26,947 nucleotides of DNA from Actinoplanes subtropicus (GTDB taxonomy: Bacteria > Actinomycetota > Actinomycetes > Mycobacteriales > Micromonosporaceae), in contig NZ_JOJL01000073.1 of assembly GCF_000721705.1 (NCBI RefSeq), forward strand, positions 1 through 26,947, in the 5' to 3' direction. Position 1 is the first letter of the stretch; every line of letters starts with the position of its first letter. Of the stretch, positions 12,658-26,776 are shown piece by piece. The notes under the pieces were generated by a model that was not told the origin of the DNA, did not search any database, and saw only the letters and a program-made list of their open reading frames with translations. A program made the translations under genes and the position numbers.

Positions 12658-12823
12658 CGGCTAGTCTTTTCTCCACCCCTCGGTTAGGGTCTTGGTAACC
12701 GAACGGCCAAATGCGCCGTCGACGGGGTCGGATCGACTCCCGTCGGCAACCGATAGGGACACCCGACCGACCGGGTCCGCACAGTGGACCGGCTCTCCGG
12801 AGAGGTGCCAGGGAGGACCAAGC

Positions 12824-13525
12824 ATGACCGTCACCGAGACCTCGCAGATCTCGCCCGCCACCAAGGCCGGCGCCGAGGCGCCCGCCGACAGCGCCGCCGA
12901 GTTGCTGAACGCGATGGCCGCGATGCCGATCGGCCATCCGTCCCGCGCCCAGCTGCGCGACAGCGCGATCGAGGCGTGGCTGCCGCTCGCCCGCCACCTG
13001 GCCAACCGCTACTCCGGCCGGGGCGAGCCCACCGACGACCTGATCCAGACCGCCACGGTCGGCCTGATCAAGGCGGTCGACAAGTTCGACCCGGACCGCG
13101 GCGTCGACTTCGCCGGCTACGCCATCCCGACCATCATCGGCGAGATCAAAAGACACTTCCGCGACCGTACGTGGAGCGTCCGCGTCCCCCGCCGGCTCCA
13201 GGAGCTGCGGCTGGCCATCACCGAGGCGAACAGCACGCTGACCCACTCGCTGGGCCGCTCGCCGACGGTGGCCGACATCGCCGCGCACCTGTCGATCACC
13301 GAGGAGGACGTGCTGGAGGGGCTGGAGGGCGCCCGCGCCTACAACGCCACCTCGCTGGCGACGCTCGACGAGCGCGAGCAGAAGATCCTGACGCTGCGCT
13401 TCTACGGCAACCTGACCCAGTCGCAGATCGCCGAGCAGATCGGCATCTCCCAGATGCACGTCTCCCGGCTGCTGACCAAGGCGCTCACCAAGCTGCGCGG
13501 CCACCTGGCCGGCGACGAGATCTGA
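12824..13525 (+). CDS. Sigma-B/F-type RNA polymerase sigma factor lacking the region 3-4 linker
   Basis: The product is 233 residues, with GGGAGG 7 bases before ATG 12824. Region 2 (about 45-115) includes GEPTDDLIQTATVGLIKAVDKFDP and GYAIPTIIGEIKRHFRDRTW. Region 3 (120-172) begins VPRRLQELRLAITEANSTL. Region 4 (182-230) has the HTH SQIAEQIGISQMHVSRLL. All are close to actinobacterial SigB/SigF. Those proteins are usually about 255-270 residues, with an acidic linker of roughly 35-40 residues between ARAYNATSL and LDEREQKIL. Here the two blocks are joined directly near residue 178 (about base 13357), in frame. Its kinase and antagonist genes are divergent. Confidence 0.93.
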   Translation: MTVTETSQISPATKAGAEAPADSAAELLNAMAAMPIGHPSRAQLRDSAIEAWLPLARHLANRYSGRGEPTDDLIQTATVGLIKAVDKFDPDRGVDFAGYAIPTIIGEIKRHFRDRTWSVRVPRRLQELRLAITEANSTLTHSLGRSPTVADIAAHLSITEEDVLEGLEGARAYNATSLATLDEREQKILTLRFYGNLTQSQIAEQIGISQMHVSRLLTKALTKLRGHLAGDEI

Positions 13526-19418: not shown

Positions 19419-19442
19419 ACGCCCAGGTCTCCCACGCCAAGC
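19419..19442 (+). repeat. Inverted-repeat copy A, between HAD and DyP stop codons
   Basis: ACGCCCAGGTCTCCCACG-CCAAGC fills the whole gap between two convergent stop codons. Its reverse complement recurs at 26000-26024 with one extra base. Confidence 0.75.
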
Positions 19443-20386
19443 TATGCGGGTAGGTTGTCGAGGAATTCGGCGGTGGGGACGAAGAACAGGGAACCGGTCG
19501 TTGCCGTGGAGAAGTCCAGGATGCGGTCGTACGTGCCGTACGGGTTGCCGAGGAACATGCGGCGCAGCATCTGCTCCGGCACGTCGGGCGTCGACGCGTA
19601 GGCGATGTAATACGTCCCGAACTCGCCGTCCTTGATGGAGCCGAACGGCATGTTGTCGCGCAGGATCTTCAGTTCGTTGCCGTCCGGGTCGTCGACCGTG
19701 TTGAGGGCGACGTGCGAGTTCGGCGCCTTCTCGGTCAGCTCGACGTTGTCCAGCTTGGTGCGGCCGATCGCCGCCTCCTGCTCCTCGACCTTCAGCGCGT
19801 TCCACGCCGCCAGGTCGTGCAGGTACTTCTGCACCAGCACGTAGCTGCCGCCGGCGTACGCCGGGTCCTCGTCGCCGATCAGCGCATGCCGGGCGGCCAC
19901 CTCGCCGGTCGGGTTCTCGGTGCCGTCCACGAAGCCGAGCAGGTCCCGCTCGTCGAAGTACTTGAAGCCGTGCGTCTCGTCGACCACGTCGGCCACCGCG
20001 GCCAGCCGCCCGGCGATCTTCGAGGCCAGCTCGAAGCAGACGTCCATCTGCCCGGCCCGGATGTGGAAGAGCAGGTCGCCGGGGGTCGACGGGGCGCTGT
20101 GCCGGGGGCCCGTCCACGCCCGGAACTTGTGCAGCTCGGCTGGGCGCGGCGCCTGGAAGAGCCGGTCCCACAGCTCGGCGCCGATCCCGGTGACACAGGA
20201 GAGCTGCGCCGCCGGGAGCCGGAAGCCGACCGTCCGCTGCAACGCGCTCATGTCCTCGAGCAGGTCCCGGACGGTCGCCTCGCCGCCCTCCCGGACGGTC
20301 ATCACCAGGAAGATGGCGGCGTCGGTGAGCGGGGCGAGCACCGCCTGCGAGGTAACCAGCGGGCCGAGCGAGCGAGGCGCGGTCAT
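19442..20386 (-). CDS. Dye-decolorizing peroxidase (DyP type B)
   Basis: The product is 314 residues from ATG 20386. The catalytic GFVDGTENP motif has D154; the proximal heme ligand is H225 in APNSHVALN and the distal arginine is R243 in LKILRDNMPFG. The order and length match type-B DyP peroxidases such as the lignin-active actinobacterial enzyme. They oxidise phenols, dyes or Mn2+ with peroxide. There is no signal peptide, and the C-terminus (TAEFLDNLPA) lacks the encapsulin-docking tail; no encapsulin gene is nearby. TAAGCT on the minus strand (20399-20394) lies seven bases before the ATG, suggesting a leaderless transcript. Confidence 0.93.
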   Translation of the reverse strand: MTAPRSLGPLVTSQAVLAPLTDAAIFLVMTVREGGEATVRDLLEDMSALQRTVGFRLPAAQLSCVTGIGAELWDRLFQAPRPAELHKFRAWTGPRHSAPSTPGDLLFHIRAGQMDVCFELASKIAGRLAAVADVVDETHGFKYFDERDLLGFVDGTENPTGEVAARHALIGDEDPAYAGGSYVLVQKYLHDLAAWNALKVEEQEAAIGRTKLDNVELTEKAPNSHVALNTVDDPDGNELKILRDNMPFGSIKDGEFGTYYIAYASTPDVPEQMLRRMFLGNPYGTYDRILDFSTATTGSLFFVPTAEFLDNLPA

Positions 20387-20393
20387 GATCCGC

Positions 20394-20419
20394 AGCTTAC
20401 GGCCCCGGCGCCCGATAAT
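20394..20419. promoter_or_regulatory. Back-to-back -10 boxes of the DyP and monooxygenase genes
   Basis: TAAGCT (20399-20394, minus) is 7 bases before the DyP ATG and GATAAT (20414-20419, plus) is 6 bases before the monooxygenase ATG. The start codons are only 39 bases apart, so the promoters overlap and polymerases would compete. Neither gene has a clear ribosome site. Confidence 0.45.
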
Positions 20420-20425
20420 GGGCGG

Positions 20426-20963
20426 ATGAGTGATCGGGTTGACGTTCTCGTGGTCGGCGCCGGTCTGTCCGGCATCGACGCCGGCTATCGGCTGCAGACC
20501 CAGTGCCCCGGCCGGAGCTACCTGATCCTCGAGGGCCGCGAGACCTCCGGCGGCACCTGGGATCTGTTCCGTTATCCGGGCGTACGGTCGGATTCCGACA
20601 TGTTCCCCCTCGGCTACCCGTTCCGGCCCTGGCGGGACCCCAAGGCGATCGCCTCCGGCGAGACCATTCTGCGGTACGTACGGGAGACTCACCGCCCGGT
20701 ACGTCTGCCGGCTGCTCAACTACATGGCCCGGCACGACATCGACGTCACCACCCCGACCATGCCACCCGACCTGCCGGCGGTCGACGAGCCGCTGCTGAG
20801 CCTGACTTCGGGGTACGTCCGGCGGGCCGCCGCGATCCTGCCCCGGCAGGGCGCCCGCCACCCGTGGAAGATGCGCAACAACTACCTGACCGACCTGCCG
20901 GTCATACGGCTGGGGCGGATAGACGACGGCCACATGCGCTTCATCCGGAAGGCGGGTGTCTGA
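20426..20963 (+). pseudogene. Flavin-containing (Baeyer-Villiger) monooxygenase remnant
   Basis: ATG 20426 opens a frame with the FAD motif GAGLSG (11-16), then GGTWDLFRYPGVRSDSDMF and GETILRYVRET, the normal N-terminus of MymA/EtaA-type enzymes. At about 20690 homology stops and the frame turns to noise. From 20697, in another frame, RYVCRLLNYMARHDIDV, EPLLSLTSGYVRRAA, LPRQGARHPWKMRNNY and LGRIDDGHMRF are the normal C-terminus. About 300 central residues, including the NADPH site, are missing. CGGTACGT occurs on both sides (20672-20679 and 20697-20704), as may happen when a deletion forms between short repeats. The final TGA overlaps the SDR start. Confidence 0.85.
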
Positions 20964-22014: not shown

Positions 22015-25000
22015 GTGCTGAGCCTCGACACGGTCGCCGGGTCGCAGGTCCACCCGGCCATCCGACCGGCCCTCGAACCGCCGAGCACCGCCGCCGTCTA
22101 CTCCGGCGGGCCGGAACCGGCCCCTCGCACCCTGATCGATGTGCTGGAAGCCACCGCCGCGATGTTTCCGCACGCACCGGCCATCGACGACGGCACTCGG
22201 GTGCTCGACTACCGCGCCATGCTGGACGAGGCCTCGCGGCTCGCCGGCCGGCTGGCCGAGGCCGGCGTCGGTGCCGGTGACCGGGTGGGCATCCGGGTCC
22301 AGTCCGGAACCGCCGACCTGTACCTGTCGATCCTGGCCGTGCTGGCGGTGGGCGCCGCGTACGTGCCGGTCGACCACGACGACCCGGACGACCGGGCCGA
22401 ACTGGTCTGGTCGGAGGCCGGCGTGTGCGCGGTCGTCGACCGTACCGGGCTGCGGGCCGGGCCGGGGCGCTCCCGCAGTCTCGGCCCGTACCGGCCCCGG
22501 CTGCGCGACGACGCGTGGATCATCTTCACGTCCGGCACCACCGGCAAGCCCAAGGGCGTCGCGGTGAAACATCGCAACTCCGCGGCGTTCGTCGACGCGG
22601 AGGCCCGGCTGTTCCTCCAGGACCGCCCGCTGGGCCCCGGCGACCGGGTGCTGGCCGGGCTCTCGGTCGCCTTCGACGCGTCGTGCGAGGAGATGTGGCT
22701 GGCCTGGCGGCACGGCGCCTGCCTGGTGCCGGCCGACCGCACGCTGATGAAGGCCGCCCCCGACCTGGCCGAGTGGCTGGGCGAGCGCGGCATCACGGTC
22801 GTCTCGACGGTGCCGACCATGGTCGCCTTGTGGCCGCCGTACGCTCTGGACAACGTGCGCCTGCTCATCCTGGGCGGCGAGGCATGCCCGGCCGGCCTGG
22901 CCGAGCGGCTGGCCAAGGGCACCACCGAGGTCTGGAACACCTACGGCCCCACCGAGGCCACGGTGGTGGCCTGCGCCGCCCGGCTGACCGGCGACGGCCC
23001 GGTCCGCATCGGCCTGCCGCTGGCCGGGTGGGACCTGGCGGTCGTCGACCCGGACAGCGGTGCCCCGGTCGGCTGGGGCGAGGAGGGCGAACTGGTCATC
23101 GGCGGGGCCGGCGTGGCGCGGTACCTCGACGCGGGCAAGGACGCGGAGAAGTTCCCGGCGTTGCCCCAGCTGGGCTGGCACCGCGCGTACCGCAGCGGAG
23201 ATCTGGTCCGGGCCGACCCGGAGGGCCTGGTCTTCCTCGGGCGGGCGGACAGCCAGGTGAAGATCCGCGGATACCGGGTCGAGCTCAGCGAGATCGAGTC
23301 GGTGATCCTGCAGCTGCCGGGCATCGCGCAGGCCGCGGTCACCACCTACGAGCGGCGGCCCGGGCTGATCGACCTGGTCGCGTACTACAGCCCGGCCGAC
23401 GACCGCACGCCGGTCGACGAGCCGCAGGTCTTCGAGGTGTTGCGCCGGCGGCTTCCGGCACACATGATCCCCGCGTACCTGGAACGCCTGCCCACCCTGC
23501 CGATCACCCGCAGCGGGAAGATCGACCGCAAGCGCCTGCCGGCGCCGACCGGCGCCCGCGGGGTGAGCGCCGACCAGCCCACCGCCGAGGCGGCCACCGC
23601 GGTCGAGAAGGCCCTCGCGGACACCCTCGCCGAGGTTCTCGGCCTGCCGCAGGTATCGGTGGAGAGCAACCTGTTCTCGGACCTCGGCGCCAACTCGCTG
23701 GTCATCGCGCACTTCTGCGCCGCACTGCGGCAGCGGGCCGACCTGCCACCGGTGTCCACGAAGGACGTCTATCTGCACCCGACCATCCGGGGCCTGGCCG
23801 CGACGCTTCCGGCGACCGCGCCGCCCCGGCCTCCGTCCAAAGTGCACACCAGGCCGGCGCCGCCGCCGGTGAGCACGCAACGCTACCTGCTCTGCGGCCT
23901 GATCCAGGCGCTGGTGTTGCTCGGCGGGGTGGCCATCACCGCGCAGATCCTGGAGACCGGCCTCGACTGGATCTCCGATGCTTCCGGCTTCGGGCACGTC
24001 TACCTGCGGTCGCTGGTCTTCGACGTGACCGTGTTCGCGGTCATGTCGATCCTGCCGATCCTGGTGAAATGGATGCTGATCGGCCGCTGGCAGCGCGCCG
24101 AGATTCCGTTGTGGAGCCTGCGGTACCTGCGTTTCTGGTTCGTCAAGACCCTGGTGCGCAGCAACCCGCTGGTGCTGTTCGCCGGCTCGCCGCTCTACAA
24201 CATGTACCTGCGCGCGCTCGGCGCCCGGATCGGCGCCCGCGCGCACATCATGTCGACCACGGTTCCGGTCTGTACCGACATGCTGAGCATCGGCCACGAC
24301 GCCGTGGTGCACCGCGCGTCCTCGTTCACCGGCTACCGCGCGCACAACGGGCAGATCGAGCTGGGCCCGGTGAGCATCGGCGACAACGCGTTCGTCGGCG
24401 ACCGGACCGTCATCGACATCGGCGCCCGCGTCGGCCGCCACGCGCAACTGGGACACGCCTCGGCGTTGCACGCCGAGCAGAGCATCCCCGACGGCGAACG
24501 GTGGCACGGTTCCCCGGCCGAGCCGGCGACAACCGATTACCGTACGCTCGCCCCGGCCGGACTCAGCCGGCTGCGCCGCTTCTCCACCAGCGTGTTCGGC
24601 TTGTTCGCGCTGCTGTTCGTGTCGCTGCCGGTGGCCACCGCGGTCAGCGTGCTGATCATCACCCGGCTGCGCGGGCTCGACCCGGAACTCCCCCGCGACG
24701 ACCAGTCCCTCTTCAGCGGCACGCTCTACAAGCAGGCCGCGGCCATCTCGTTCGTGCTGTTCTTCGGCGCCGTCATCGGCGGCGTGCTGCTCGTCGCCAC
24801 CGTCCCACGGCTGCTGCGGCGGTTCAGCCGGCCCGGCCGGATCTACCCGCTCTACGGGATGCACCACGCGATCCATCGGGCGGTCCGGCGGATCAGCAAC
24901 GCACACTTCTACATCGAACTTCTCGGCGACAGCTCGTACATCGTCGGCTACCTGCGGGCCATCGGCTACCGGCTGGCCCGTTCCGGCGGACAGACCGGCT

Positions 25001-25995
25001 CCAACTTCGGCTCGTCGCTGCAACACGACGACCCGTTCCTCACCAAGGTCGGCGGCGGCACCCAGATCTCCGACGACGTCTCCTTCGGCAACGCCGAGTT
25101 CACCAGTTCCTCGTTCCGGGTCAGCCCGGTGATCGTGGGCACGAACTCGTTCGTCGGCAACTCGATCACCTTCCCGACCGGCGCCCGGATCGGCGAGAAC
25201 ATCCTGGTCGCGACGAAGGCGATGATCCCGCTCGACGGACCCGTCCGCTCGGGCGTCGGCCTGCTCGGCTCGCCGCCGTTCGAGATCCCCCGCTCGGTCG
25301 AACGCGACGCCAGCTTCGACGCCATGAAGACCCCGGACGAGTTCCGCCGCCGGCTGACCGCCAAGAACCGCCACAACCTGGTCACCATGGCACTGTTCCT
25401 GGCCGCGCGCTGGCTGCACTTCTACATCCTGACGCTGATCGCCATGATGGCCAGCCACATCCTCGGCCATCCCGTCGTCCCGATCCTGCTCGCGTCGCTG
25501 CCGTTCAGCGTCGTCTACTTCATCGCGGTGGAACGGGCCACCCAGATATTCCAGGCCCTGCGCCCACGCTTCACCTCGATCTACGACCCGTACTTCTGGT
25601 GGCACGAGCGCTACTGGAAGCTGCAGACGCCGAGCACCAACCTCCTCAACGGCACGCCGATGAAGGCGCTGATCTGGCGGGCGCTCGGCGTACGGGTCGG
25701 CAAGCGCCTGTACGACGACGGCTGCACGATCGTGGAACGCAGCCTCGTCACGATCGGCGACGACGCGGCCCTCAACGCGGGTGCGGTCATCCAGTGCCAC
25801 AGCATGGAAGACGACACCTTCAAGTCGGACCGGGCGGTCGTCGGTTCCGGCTGCACGCTCGGGGTCGGCGCGTTCGTCCACTACGGCACGGTGCTCGCCG
25901 ACCACACGATCCTGGAAGCCGACTCGTTCCTCATGAAGGGAGAGCGGACGGCGGCCGCCTCGTACTGGGGCGGCAACCCGGCCCGCGAGCTGTAG
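22015..25995 (+). CDS. Pls/PosA-family peptide synthetase (epsilon-poly-lysine synthetase-like)
   Basis: The product is 1326 residues from GTG 22015, with a stop in the same frame at 21985 and no clear ribosome site. The adenylation domain (about 40-505) has FTSGTTGKPKG at 171-181, NTYGPTE at 308-314 and K502 in SGKIDRK. A carrier domain follows with S561 in LGANSL. After a Pro-rich linker come six membrane helices in pairs (about 624-645/664-686, 857-885/905-928, 1123-1148/1153-1173) alternating with three left-handed beta-helix domains (about 739-825, 996-1085, 1226-1308). There is no condensation or thioesterase domain. This is the Pls architecture, in which the C-terminal domains link the amino acid repeatedly. 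By homology to GrsA the pocket residues read D221, A222, E225, S264, I285, G287, T309, V317, V318, K502. Confidence 0.93.
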   Translation: MLSLDTVAGSQVHPAIRPALEPPSTAAVYSGGPEPAPRTLIDVLEATAAMFPHAPAIDDGTRVLDYRAMLDEASRLAGRLAEAGVGAGDRVGIRVQSGTADLYLSILAVLAVGAAYVPVDHDDPDDRAELVWSEAGVCAVVDRTGLRAGPGRSRSLGPYRPRLRDDAWIIFTSGTTGKPKGVAVKHRNSAAFVDAEARLFLQDRPLGPGDRVLAGLSVAFDASCEEMWLAWRHGACLVPADRTLMKAAPDLAEWLGERGITVVSTVPTMVALWPPYALDNVRLLILGGEACPAGLAERLAKGTTEVWNTYGPTEATVVACAARLTGDGPVRIGLPLAGWDLAVVDPDSGAPVGWGEEGELVIGGAGVARYLDAGKDAEKFPALPQLGWHRAYRSGDLVRADPEGLVFLGRADSQVKIRGYRVELSEIESVILQLPGIAQAAVTTYERRPGLIDLVAYYSPADDRTPVDEPQVFEVLRRRLPAHMIPAYLERLPTLPITRSGKIDRKRLPAPTGARGVSADQPTAEAATAVEKALADTLAEVLGLPQVSVESNLFSDLGANSLVIAHFCAALRQRADLPPVSTKDVYLHPTIRGLAATLPATAPPRPPSKVHTRPAPPPVSTQRYLLCGLIQALVLLGGVAITAQILETGLDWISDASGFGHVYLRSLVFDVTVFAVMSILPILVKWMLIGRWQRAEIPLWSLRYLRFWFVKTLVRSNPLVLFAGSPLYNMYLRALGARIGARAHIMSTTVPVCTDMLSIGHDAVVHRASSFTGYRAHNGQIELGPVSIGDNAFVGDRTVIDIGARVGRHAQLGHASALHAEQSIPDGERWHGSPAEPATTDYRTLAPAGLSRLRRFSTSVFGLFALLFVSLPVATAVSVLIITRLRGLDPELPRDDQSLFSGTLYKQAAAISFVLFFGAVIGGVLLVATVPRLLRRFSRPGRIYPLYGMHHAIHRAVRRISNAHFYIELLGDSSYIVGYLRAIGYRLARSGGQTGSNFGSSLQHDDPFLTKVGGGTQISDDVSFGNAEFTSSSFRVSPVIVGTNSFVGNSITFPTGARIGENILVATKAMIPLDGPVRSGVGLLGSPPFEIPRSVERDASFDAMKTPDEFRRRLTAKNRHNLVTMALFLAARWLHFYILTLIAMMASHILGHPVVPILLASLPFSVVYFIAVERATQIFQALRPRFTSIYDPYFWWHERYWKLQTPSTNLLNGTPMKALIWRALGVRVGKRLYDDGCTIVERSLVTIGDDAALNAGAVIQCHSMEDDTFKSDRAVVGSGCTLGVGAFVHYGTVLADHTILEADSFLMKGERTAAASYWGGNPAREL

Positions 25996-26158: not shown

Positions 26159-26776
26159 TCAGAATTGCGGTGAGTTCCCATTCCCCTGGGCCGCCCGAAT
26201 CGGCAAGGGCAGAATCATGGCGTCGTATTCAGGTGAGTCGTCAAAGGGTTTTATGCTACCTATCTTTCGCCAGCCCCAAGAGGCATACGCGGCATGGGCT
26301 GGGGCGTTGTCCGGAAGAACCAGTAGTGTTGCGCGCTCCTCAGCCCGATCAGTCAGGAGAAGATCATGCAGTCGATGGGCGAACCCGCGGCGTCGCCAAT
26401 TTTCGAGCACCATGATCTCAGTCAGAGCGAAGGTTCGGTGTCCGTCTTCATGTAGTTCGCTTTGGTCGATGTCCGACCTGAGCCCTCGCCACCAGCCACT
26501 TCCTGCCGGAAGTGGGTAGCCGAGCTCCCTTTCGACGACTTCTCCGTAGATGCCGTTTTCGAGCATCCCGTAACCGTCTTGTGCGCTGGCCTTTGCTGCG
26601 CGCCAGAGGGTCGCGCCGCCGTGCTGATAGTCAAGGCCATAGAGCCACGCAGCGGTTTCTCGAAGCTCTTTGGCGTCGTTGACGCCGATCTTGCGTCGCT
26701 TCCCGTGAGCCGCAGAGCCGGAGCTTGCCAGGGCTGGCCCGACTATCCCCAGCGCTAGAAGACTTCGTCGTCTCAT
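26159..26776 (-). CDS. Chimeric gene: XRE-regulator fragment fused to a GNAT acetyltransferase
   Basis: The product is 205 residues from ATG 26776. Residues 1-78 (MRRRSLLALGIVGPALA, LYGLDYQHGGATLWRAA, QDGYGMLENGIYGE) match the middle of an actinobacterial XRE/TPR regulator, just after its HTH. From about residue 79 the sequence becomes a GNAT: VVERELGYPLPAGSGWWRGL, TEIMVLENWRRRGFAHRLHD with the acetyl-CoA loop RRRGFA, and TLLVLPDNAPAHAAYASWGW. The GNAT lacks its first 50-60 residues and the regulator lacks its HTH and C-terminus. The join is in frame at about 26540. It may be a decayed product of recombination, or a novel fusion. The frame is open upstream to the window edge. The GC content is lower than in its neighbours. 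Confidence 0.65.
   Translation of the reverse strand: MRRRSLLALGIVGPALASSGSAAHGKRRKIGVNDAKELRETAAWLYGLDYQHGGATLWRAAKASAQDGYGMLENGIYGEVVERELGYPLPAGSGWWRGLRSDIDQSELHEDGHRTFALTEIMVLENWRRRGFAHRLHDLLLTDRAEERATLLVLPDNAPAHAAYASWGWRKIGSIKPFDDSPEYDAMILPLPIRAAQGNGNSPQF

Follow-up and report, generated by a model that had tools for sequence, protein, structure and literature searches.

The stretch of DNA analyzed here, referred to as the window, comprises 26,947 nucleotides of Actinoplanes subtropicus (assembly GCF_000721705.1, contig NZ_JOJL01000073.1, positions 1 to 26,947 of the forward strand). It contains on its forward strand a complete gene (22015..25995, GTG start codon, 0 internal stops) for a chimeric synthetase of the Pls/PosA family with 1326 amino acids. 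This protein is a natural chimera. Up to approximately residue 411 it is similar to Pls, the epsilon-poly-L-lysine synthetase, and from approximately residue 417 on to synthetases with the pocket code DFECLSVVTK, here called diaminobutyrate (Dab) type, a substrate label (Dab or diaminopropionate, Dap) which rests on the code and the neighboring genes. The architecture, the identity of the substrate pocket to that of a solved Pls A domain, the chimeric ancestry, the breakpoint and the recurrence of such proteins in relatives were shown by computation. As the best explanation of these results we propose a single-crossover chimera of two cationic homopolymer synthetases, which probably makes epsilon-poly-L-lysine.

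Two ancestries within one synthetase

The domain architecture was determined by profile searches and hydropathy. Pfam assigned residues 44-369 to AMP-binding, 426-502 to AMP-binding_C and 533-598 to PP-binding. The NCBIfam profile TIGR02353 ("Pls/PosA family") matched residues 627-1323 with 684.1 bits at a cut-off of 423.1, and the protein is thus a member of this family. The core of the adenylation (A) domain (A-core, residues ~38-411) is encoded at 22126..23247, the A8 hinge GRADSQVK (residues 409-416) at 23239..23262, the C-terminal A subdomain (A-sub, residues 417-510) at 23263..23544, the carrier (PCP) domain with its LGANSL motif and S561 at 23611..23808 (PF00550 and motif) and the membrane polymerization domain (TIGR02353) at 23893..25983. 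Hydropathy revealed six helices in three pairs, all past residue 620, namely residues 625-643 and 666-684 (23887..24066), 864-882 and 909-927 (24604..24795), and 1127-1145 and 1154-1172 (25393..25530). Each pair is followed by a soluble segment: C1 (residues 685-863, 24067..24603), C2 (residues 928-1126, 24796..25392) and C3 (residues 1173-1326, 25531..25992). Hexapeptide (left-handed beta-helix) profiles matched C1 with E 7e-5 and C3 with E 4e-5, both under the curated Pfam cut-off when the segments were scanned alone, and C2 weakly with 0.025. A family profile of the C-terminus matched hexapeptide transferases and gamma-carbonic anhydrases of the PDB at segments 1 and 3. Neither a thioesterase (TE) domain among the Pfam matches of the protein nor an upstream condensation (C) domain was found. 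This is the Pls/PosA architecture of A-PCP, six helices and three soluble segments lacking C and TE. A preliminary description of the gene had listed the same order with three beta-helix domains; the A and PCP domains, the six helices and the missing TE were recovered, and the beta-helix fold is supported by sequence for two of the three domains and weakly for the third.

For the comparison of ancestries we used 94 canonical Pls-type rows, among them the Pls of the same genome twice (as L002 and as the shorter L111), and 120 Dab-type rows (P0121-P0240), which are the best 120 of 6815 proteins found with L010 from Streptomyces rugosispiralis as query. The codes of the latter are DFECLSVVTK in 115, DFECLSVVSK in four and DFEVLSVVTK in one. 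The A-core of the window protein showed a median identity of 69% to canonical Pls and 38% to the Dab type. For the A-sub the values were 38% and 60%, for the PCP 34% and 58%, and for the C-terminal domain 27% and 49%, respectively. A sliding identity scan gave a single switch near residue 410. Among 101 strict diagnostic sites, the 82 up to residue 412 comprised 72 with the Pls residue, 1 with the Dab residue and 9 with neither; after residue 412 (n=19) there were 12 Dab, 1 Pls and 6 neither. The best break lies at residues 411-417 with looser sites, within or just after GRADSQVK, and at 407-418 with stricter sites. Since the stretch ahead of the A-core proper is also Pls-like, one crossover suffices. 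The preliminary description is right in the family, the architecture and the lysine-type pocket, but its term "Pls-type" applies only to the first ~411 residues; A-sub, PCP and polymerization domain are of the Dab type.

In a calibration with random canonical pairs of 65-72% A-core identity (344 of 1483 pairs) the mean identity of PCP plus C-terminal domain was 51.6%, with a minimum of 38.8%. Pairs of canonical Pls with proteins built like the window enzyme (window-type) reached on average 67.5% in the A-core and 27.3% in PCP plus C-terminal domain.

The grouping was then analyzed in trees with 12 Pls, 14 window-type and 14 Dab-type rows and nine ordinary modules of nonribosomal peptide synthetases (NRPS) as outgroup, leaving aside P0118, P0120 and proteins with tandem cores. 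This four-group, outgroup-rooted test was used because tests with three groups and no outgroup ask only where the long branch attaches. The A-core tree (residues 45-405) united window-type and Pls with a support of 100/100. Grouping of window-type with Dab-type was rejected (log-likelihood, lnL, 63.6 worse, approximately unbiased (AU) test p 3e-5); the p values of the alternatives to the Pls grouping were 3e-5 and 4e-5. The tree of A-sub plus PCP (residues 419-600, 182 columns) united window-type and Dab-type at 100/99 and rejected window-type plus Pls with lnL 26.3 worse and AU p 0.029. By this tree, the part-wise identities and the calibration taken together, A-sub, PCP and polymerization domain, termed chassis in the following, do not group with Pls but with the DFECLSVVTK type. 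With regard to the Pls clade, outside of which the gene should not fall according to the preliminary description, the answer differs by part, the A-core going with Pls and the rest with the Dab type.

These results bear on the simplest alternative, an ordinary epsilon-polylysine synthetase that descended whole with canonical Pls and has a fast-evolving C-terminus. The same architecture and pocket are in its favor. However, the C-terminus is not merely fast, as its median identity is 49% to the Dab-type chassis versus 27% to Pls, one sharp switch lies at the hinge, and A-sub plus PCP join the Dab type, with rejection of Pls though only at p 0.029. We regard this alternative as hardly credible; an ordinary Pls orthologue was ruled out by the part-wise identities, the breakpoint and the four-group test.

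Three results of earlier trees were discarded. A nesting of window-type inside Dab-type in the first trees vanished without P0118 and P0120, which have a Pls-type A-sub. The same two proteins, which belong inside the Dab type, confounded a three-group rejection of Pls plus window-type (A-sub, PCP and C-terminus, lnL 183 worse); once they are left out, the best unrooted tree itself contains this grouping as a branch. Likewise, the three-group rejection of window-type plus Dab-type for the A-core (lnL 133 worse) was confounded because the lysine core T_P0092_1 had been left out.

With the NRPS outgroup, the Dab type as one clade was compatible with A-sub plus PCP (p 0.21). In the unrooted tree without P0118 and P0120 the Dab type formed one side at 97/96 and window-type a grade beside the long Pls branch, and the 14 main window-type rows as one clade were compatible with these data (p 0.187). 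For the direction of the exchange, a Dab-type core as the displaced one would be the simplest reading.

Recurrence of lysine cores on the Dab-type chassis

Window-type relatives were collected as the best 120 of 6714 matches to the window protein. All 119 matches other than the window itself carried a lysine-type first core, with the codes DAESIGTVVK (76), DAESVGTVVK (40), DAESVGTCVK (2) and DAASIGTLIK (1). A best-split scan was performed with 118 lysine-core rows, including the window and L009 and leaving out three tandem proteins. The split fell at 411-417 in 90 rows, at 405-407 in 17, at 407-411 in five and at 417-418 in two. Rarer positions were 398-405 and 484-490 (one row each) and 503-538 (two rows). 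The latter two proteins, P0118 and P0120, combine a complete A domain of the Pls type with a PCP and a polymerase of the Dab type. In the tree of PCP plus C-terminus they stand together with their relatives P0244, P0247 and P0249 among the Dab-type rows at 100/100. Because of this position, a single origin of all lysine-core rows was rejected (PCP plus C-terminus, lnL 216 worse), and consequently at least two separate fusions took place. By best match, the group P0118, P0120 and P0243-P0250 has a Pls-type core on a Dab-type chassis. The identity of lysine-core members on the Dab-type chassis in PCP plus C-terminal domain ranges from 45 to 94% (1490 random pairs).

Four of the 251 gathered proteins (P0092, P0102, P0241 and P0103, the last with the source name Arthrobacter pigmenti) contain two A-cores in tandem ahead of one A-sub, PCP and polymerase, a count that is not a frequency as it stems partly from a search aimed at such proteins. 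The lysine-type core comes first and the Dab-type core second. P0092 and P0102 have two intact pockets each (DAESIGTVV and DFEVLSVVSK). The first pocket of P0103 (DAASIGTLI) and that of P0241 (D-EPIGM-V, alignable only in part) are degenerate. In P0092, the end of the first core falls within the same hinge motif as the switch in the window. In the tree, the first cores of P0092 and P0102 were found among the window-type cores and that of P0103 among the canonical ones (support 82, long branch). These proteins may represent intermediates captured during the replacement of a core, leftovers that have decayed or enzymes with two substrates.

The genome of A. subtropicus yielded 33 matches to the window query at E 0.001 or better, mostly other adenylating enzymes. 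Among them is a second, complete and canonical Pls (DAESIGTVVK; L179:7954-11931, contig C2 of the genome, reverse strand), whose A-core and C-terminal domain are 72% and 27% identical, respectively, to those of the window protein. Downstream it overlaps the gene of an M1 peptidase (L179:6623-7957). A member of the Pls/PosA family over the cut-off was present in 23 of 23 other genomes of the genus. Of 67 genomes of the genus, only two contained the window-type chassis (E<=1e-100), and the second one (G021) lacks an A domain. Such a sporadic occurrence of the window gene is what would be expected if the gene had been transferred.

More window-type loci were searched in wider taxa. In 396 genomes of the phylum (E<=1e-250) only the own genome and three matches without an A domain were obtained. 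In 394 genomes of the class (E<=1e-270) the search returned the own genome, G861, one 50% match (G1172) and 11 genomes with A-less matches; the G861 match is 72% identical to P0003 and apparently derives from the contig of L009. In 397 genomes of the order (E<=1e-140) there were 29 chassis matches besides the window, 14 with a Dab-type core, 15 as core-less open reading frames (ORFs) and none with a lysine core. Chassis-like frames of 816-1428 amino acids with no matching A-core in the same ORF were observed in L150, L151, L155, L157, L158, L162, L163, L165-L167, L169-L171, L173, L175, L178 and L189-L200. Among them a PCP was confirmed by Pfam only in L155, where an NRPS of the order A-PCP-TE follows, which also gave a weak match to a condensation domain; several other A-less loci hold an NRPS-like ORF.

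Predicted monomer, neighboring genes and proposed product

The substrate pocket was taken from an alignment to 7wew, the solved A domain of epsilon-poly-L-lysine synthase; its spacing agreed within one residue with the numbered residues of the PosA paper. The pocket consists of D221, A222, E225, S264, I285, G287, T309, V317, V318 and K502, that is DAESIGTVVK, with the segment D221 to V318 (DAESIGTVV) at 22675..22968 and K502 at 23518-23520. The alignment thus reproduced the code that had been read by eye in the preliminary description. It is identical in 10 of 10 positions to 7wew and also to the canonical Pls of the same genome, and is therefore the lysine pocket of the Pls subfamily. According to the accessible text of PMC10522769 the second code position tracks side-chain length, with Phe for Dap and Dab, Met for ornithine and Ala for lysine. 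In the window enzyme this position is Ala222 and not the Phe of the DFECLSVVTK type. Because of the code identity and this Ala, lysine is the best prediction for the substrate, as had been proposed before; it is the best-supported monomer on the basis of pocket identity.

A lysine analogue (beta-lysine, ornithine or hydroxylysine) as monomer has to be considered since pocket codes do not separate all analogues. Nevertheless, the known beta-lysine enzyme has the code DGESISVVNK and the ornithine enzyme PosA DMEHNGTVSK, whereas the window code is that of 7wew, and in the pocket region (residues 213-319) 78 of 107 residues are identical to 7wew. Moreover, no aminomutase was found among the neighbors scanned, which were part of the ORFs of the window. 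We therefore consider an analogue improbable.

The neighboring genes fit a changed substrate. A published Pls operon includes an epsilon-polylysine-degrading peptidase, as stated in the accessible text of PMC8117764. An M1 peptidase gene resembling the one directly downstream of the canonical Pls of the same genome was found within the fetched stretch in 69 of the 74 canonical Pls loci (all except L020, L038, L064, L071 and L084); adjacency was seen in the matches printed. It was found in 1 of 32 Dab-chassis loci and in none of the three window-type loci (window, L009 and L011). The window synthetase is thus not in an operon with a degrading peptidase, and no peptidase adjoins it, in agreement with the preliminary description. 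A diaminobutyrate-type aminotransferase was present in 14 of 16 Dab-core loci with 38-56% identity (missing in L013 and L177), downstream in 10 of the 14 at 123-270 bases past the C-terminal match and upstream in the other four. Canonical loci gave matches at only 30-32% (5 of 74), and the window-type loci gave none (0 of 3). An aminotransferase beside or fused to the synthetase, as in the Dab/Dap type, was accordingly not found for the window. On plasmids, an annotated ectB adjoins the synthetase in L222 (DFECLSVVTK), and no ectB is annotated beside L221 (DFECLSVVTK), L223 and L224 (both DFEALGTVTK). P0199 and P0222 are Dab-type synthetases with a class III (diaminobutyrate-type) aminotransferase domain fused at the C-terminus, as checked by domain scan for P0199 and taken from the listing for P0222.

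In the mechanism that we propose, the N-terminal A-core would select and adenylate L-lysine as in epsilon-poly-L-lysine synthetase, and the A-sub would hand lysine over to the PCP. The membrane polymerization domain of the Dab-type lineage would then join lysine iteratively, most likely via the side-chain amine. The released epsilon-poly-L-lysine should be visible as a ladder with a spacing of 128 Da. Lysine activation, linkage, chain length, expression of the gene and the Dab-type core as the displaced one are inferred here from the sequence.

Several points weigh against this proposal. In none of 226 conserved chassis columns does window-type agree with Pls and differ from the Dab type, and no convergence of the chassis on canonical Pls was thus seen among them; window-type and Dab-type are consistently unlike each other in eight columns. 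Consequently, nothing in the polymerization domain itself argues for lysine, and either the polymerase is tolerant of the monomer or the product is unlike ordinary polylysine. The p value of 0.029 is modest and the underlying stretch of A-sub plus PCP is short. The C-terminal domain has no outgroup; the topology rests on A-sub plus PCP, and the C-terminal evidence is one of distance. The groups were named after the identities had been seen. The A-core tree nests window-type within Pls (97/95), yet one Pls clade was compatible (p 0.33; p 0.052 in the three-group test without outgroup and without T_P0092_1). Only three window-type loci with flanks were available (window, L009 and L011), and L011 comes from a metagenome-assembled genome with a synthetase frame broken near residue 850 and is a weak witness. 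Finally, the contig of the window ends 0.95 kb downstream of the synthetase gene. This distance would show the commoner arrangement of the aminotransferase because 10 of 14 lie 123-270 bases downstream.

In a further alternative, lysine is activated but the Dab-type polymerization domain sets limits, so that the product would be a short oligomer, a polymer with another linkage or one that mixes lysine and Dab. The retained Dab-type consensus residues without conserved changes toward Pls speak for such a limited product, as do those relatives in which one chassis bears two different cores. On the other hand, the wide divergence of lysine-core members on this chassis suggests a working pairing, and no Dab-supplying aminotransferase adjoins the window gene. 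A limited product is therefore rather unlikely.

A silent or decaying gene without product would be in line with the rarity of the chassis in the genus, where the other of the two copies is A-less, with the lack of an adjoining peptidase for self-protection and with a degraded monooxygenase gene nearby. The ORF is intact, however, and the motifs looked for (A3, A5, A8, the A10 lysine and the PCP serine) are all present, so that we judge this very unlikely. The remnant of this flavin monooxygenase (20426-20963, forward strand) lies directly before a gene for a short-chain dehydrogenase (SDR). It consists of an N-terminal NAD-binding piece assigned by Pfam, followed by a C-terminal-looking piece in another frame that was recognized by eye; the middle is missing. 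The SDR gene upstream of the synthetase is real by Pfam. It is not a conserved neighbor, its best match in the searched loci of relatives being 36% (L011). Further genes of the window encode a Dyp-type peroxidase (19442-20401, reverse strand), a GNAT-type acetyltransferase convergent with the synthetase (26159-26776, reverse strand), the N-terminus of which matched the NsdA family below the threshold, and a sigma-70 family factor with regions 2, 3 and 4 (12692-13525, forward strand). Elsewhere, a 4'-phosphopantetheinyl transferase gene lies directly downstream of the synthetase in L009 (L009:11211-11969) and L224 (L224:6936-7601).

Comparison with known systems

The determinants of monomer choice, linkage and chain length in the Pls/PosA family are little understood, and the accessible text of PMC10522769 describes the C-terminal domain of the family as lacking structural information as of 2023. 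The natural series of related polymerases with different A-cores, two kinds of junction and tandem-core proteins offers a test system that already exists. Should the lysine-core chimera make polylysine, the polymerase would be tolerant and the hinge a natural reprogramming site for food-preservative and antimicrobial polymers. More generally, we tentatively suggest, at less than even confidence, that the polymerase exerts no monomer choice and that repeated crossovers at the A8 hinge or the A/PCP linker set a lysine core before a polymerase of the Dab type, so that a single step changed the whole polymer; the tandem-core proteins would then be captured intermediates or makers of mixed lysine/diaminobutyrate polymers. 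Such chimeras would be overlooked or wrongly assigned by whole-protein identity cut-offs (40% in one published survey): over the full length, the window protein is ~39% identical to L058, which among the fetched proteins has the A domain nearest to 7wew. In the literature searched, which largely left subscription papers outside, none of the papers listed dealt with homopolymer synthetases that are chimeric or have two cores, and the main text of PMC10522769 makes no mention of recombination, chimeras, swaps or hybrids. The tree of that paper contains, according to the accessible text, a third and small group made up of "epsilon-PLs homologs" and unknowns; window-type enzymes may belong to this group.

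Compared with Pls of Streptomyces albulus (7wew), the window enzyme shares the architecture and the complete pocket code, and its A-core, for which 7wew was the best match in the PDB, is 67% identical over 366 residues; its A-sub is only 39% identical. Its PCP and C-terminal domain are 33-35% and 26-27% identical, respectively, to those of the Pls relatives L002 and L058, and the M1 peptidase gene alongside is missing. The Dab/Dap-type synthetases, for example L010, resemble it in A-sub, PCP and polymerization domain and differ in the A-core (38%), in the second pocket position with Phe in place of Ala and in the neighboring diaminobutyrate aminotransferase gene. PosA, the delta-poly-L-ornithine synthetase of Acinetobacter, has the family and the pocket logic of Asp217, Glu221 and Thr304 in common with the window enzyme, but differs in its code and prefers ornithine, as given in the accessible text of PMC10522769. 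Swaps of A-core subdomains are well described for modular NRPSs in the accessible text of Baunach 2021 (PMC8097286). There, as in the window enzyme, the A-core is exchanged and A-sub and the carrier interface are kept. However, a swap in a modular NRPS changes one residue of a peptide, whereas the window-type swap, in an enzyme with no upstream C domain, would change every unit of a homopolymer.

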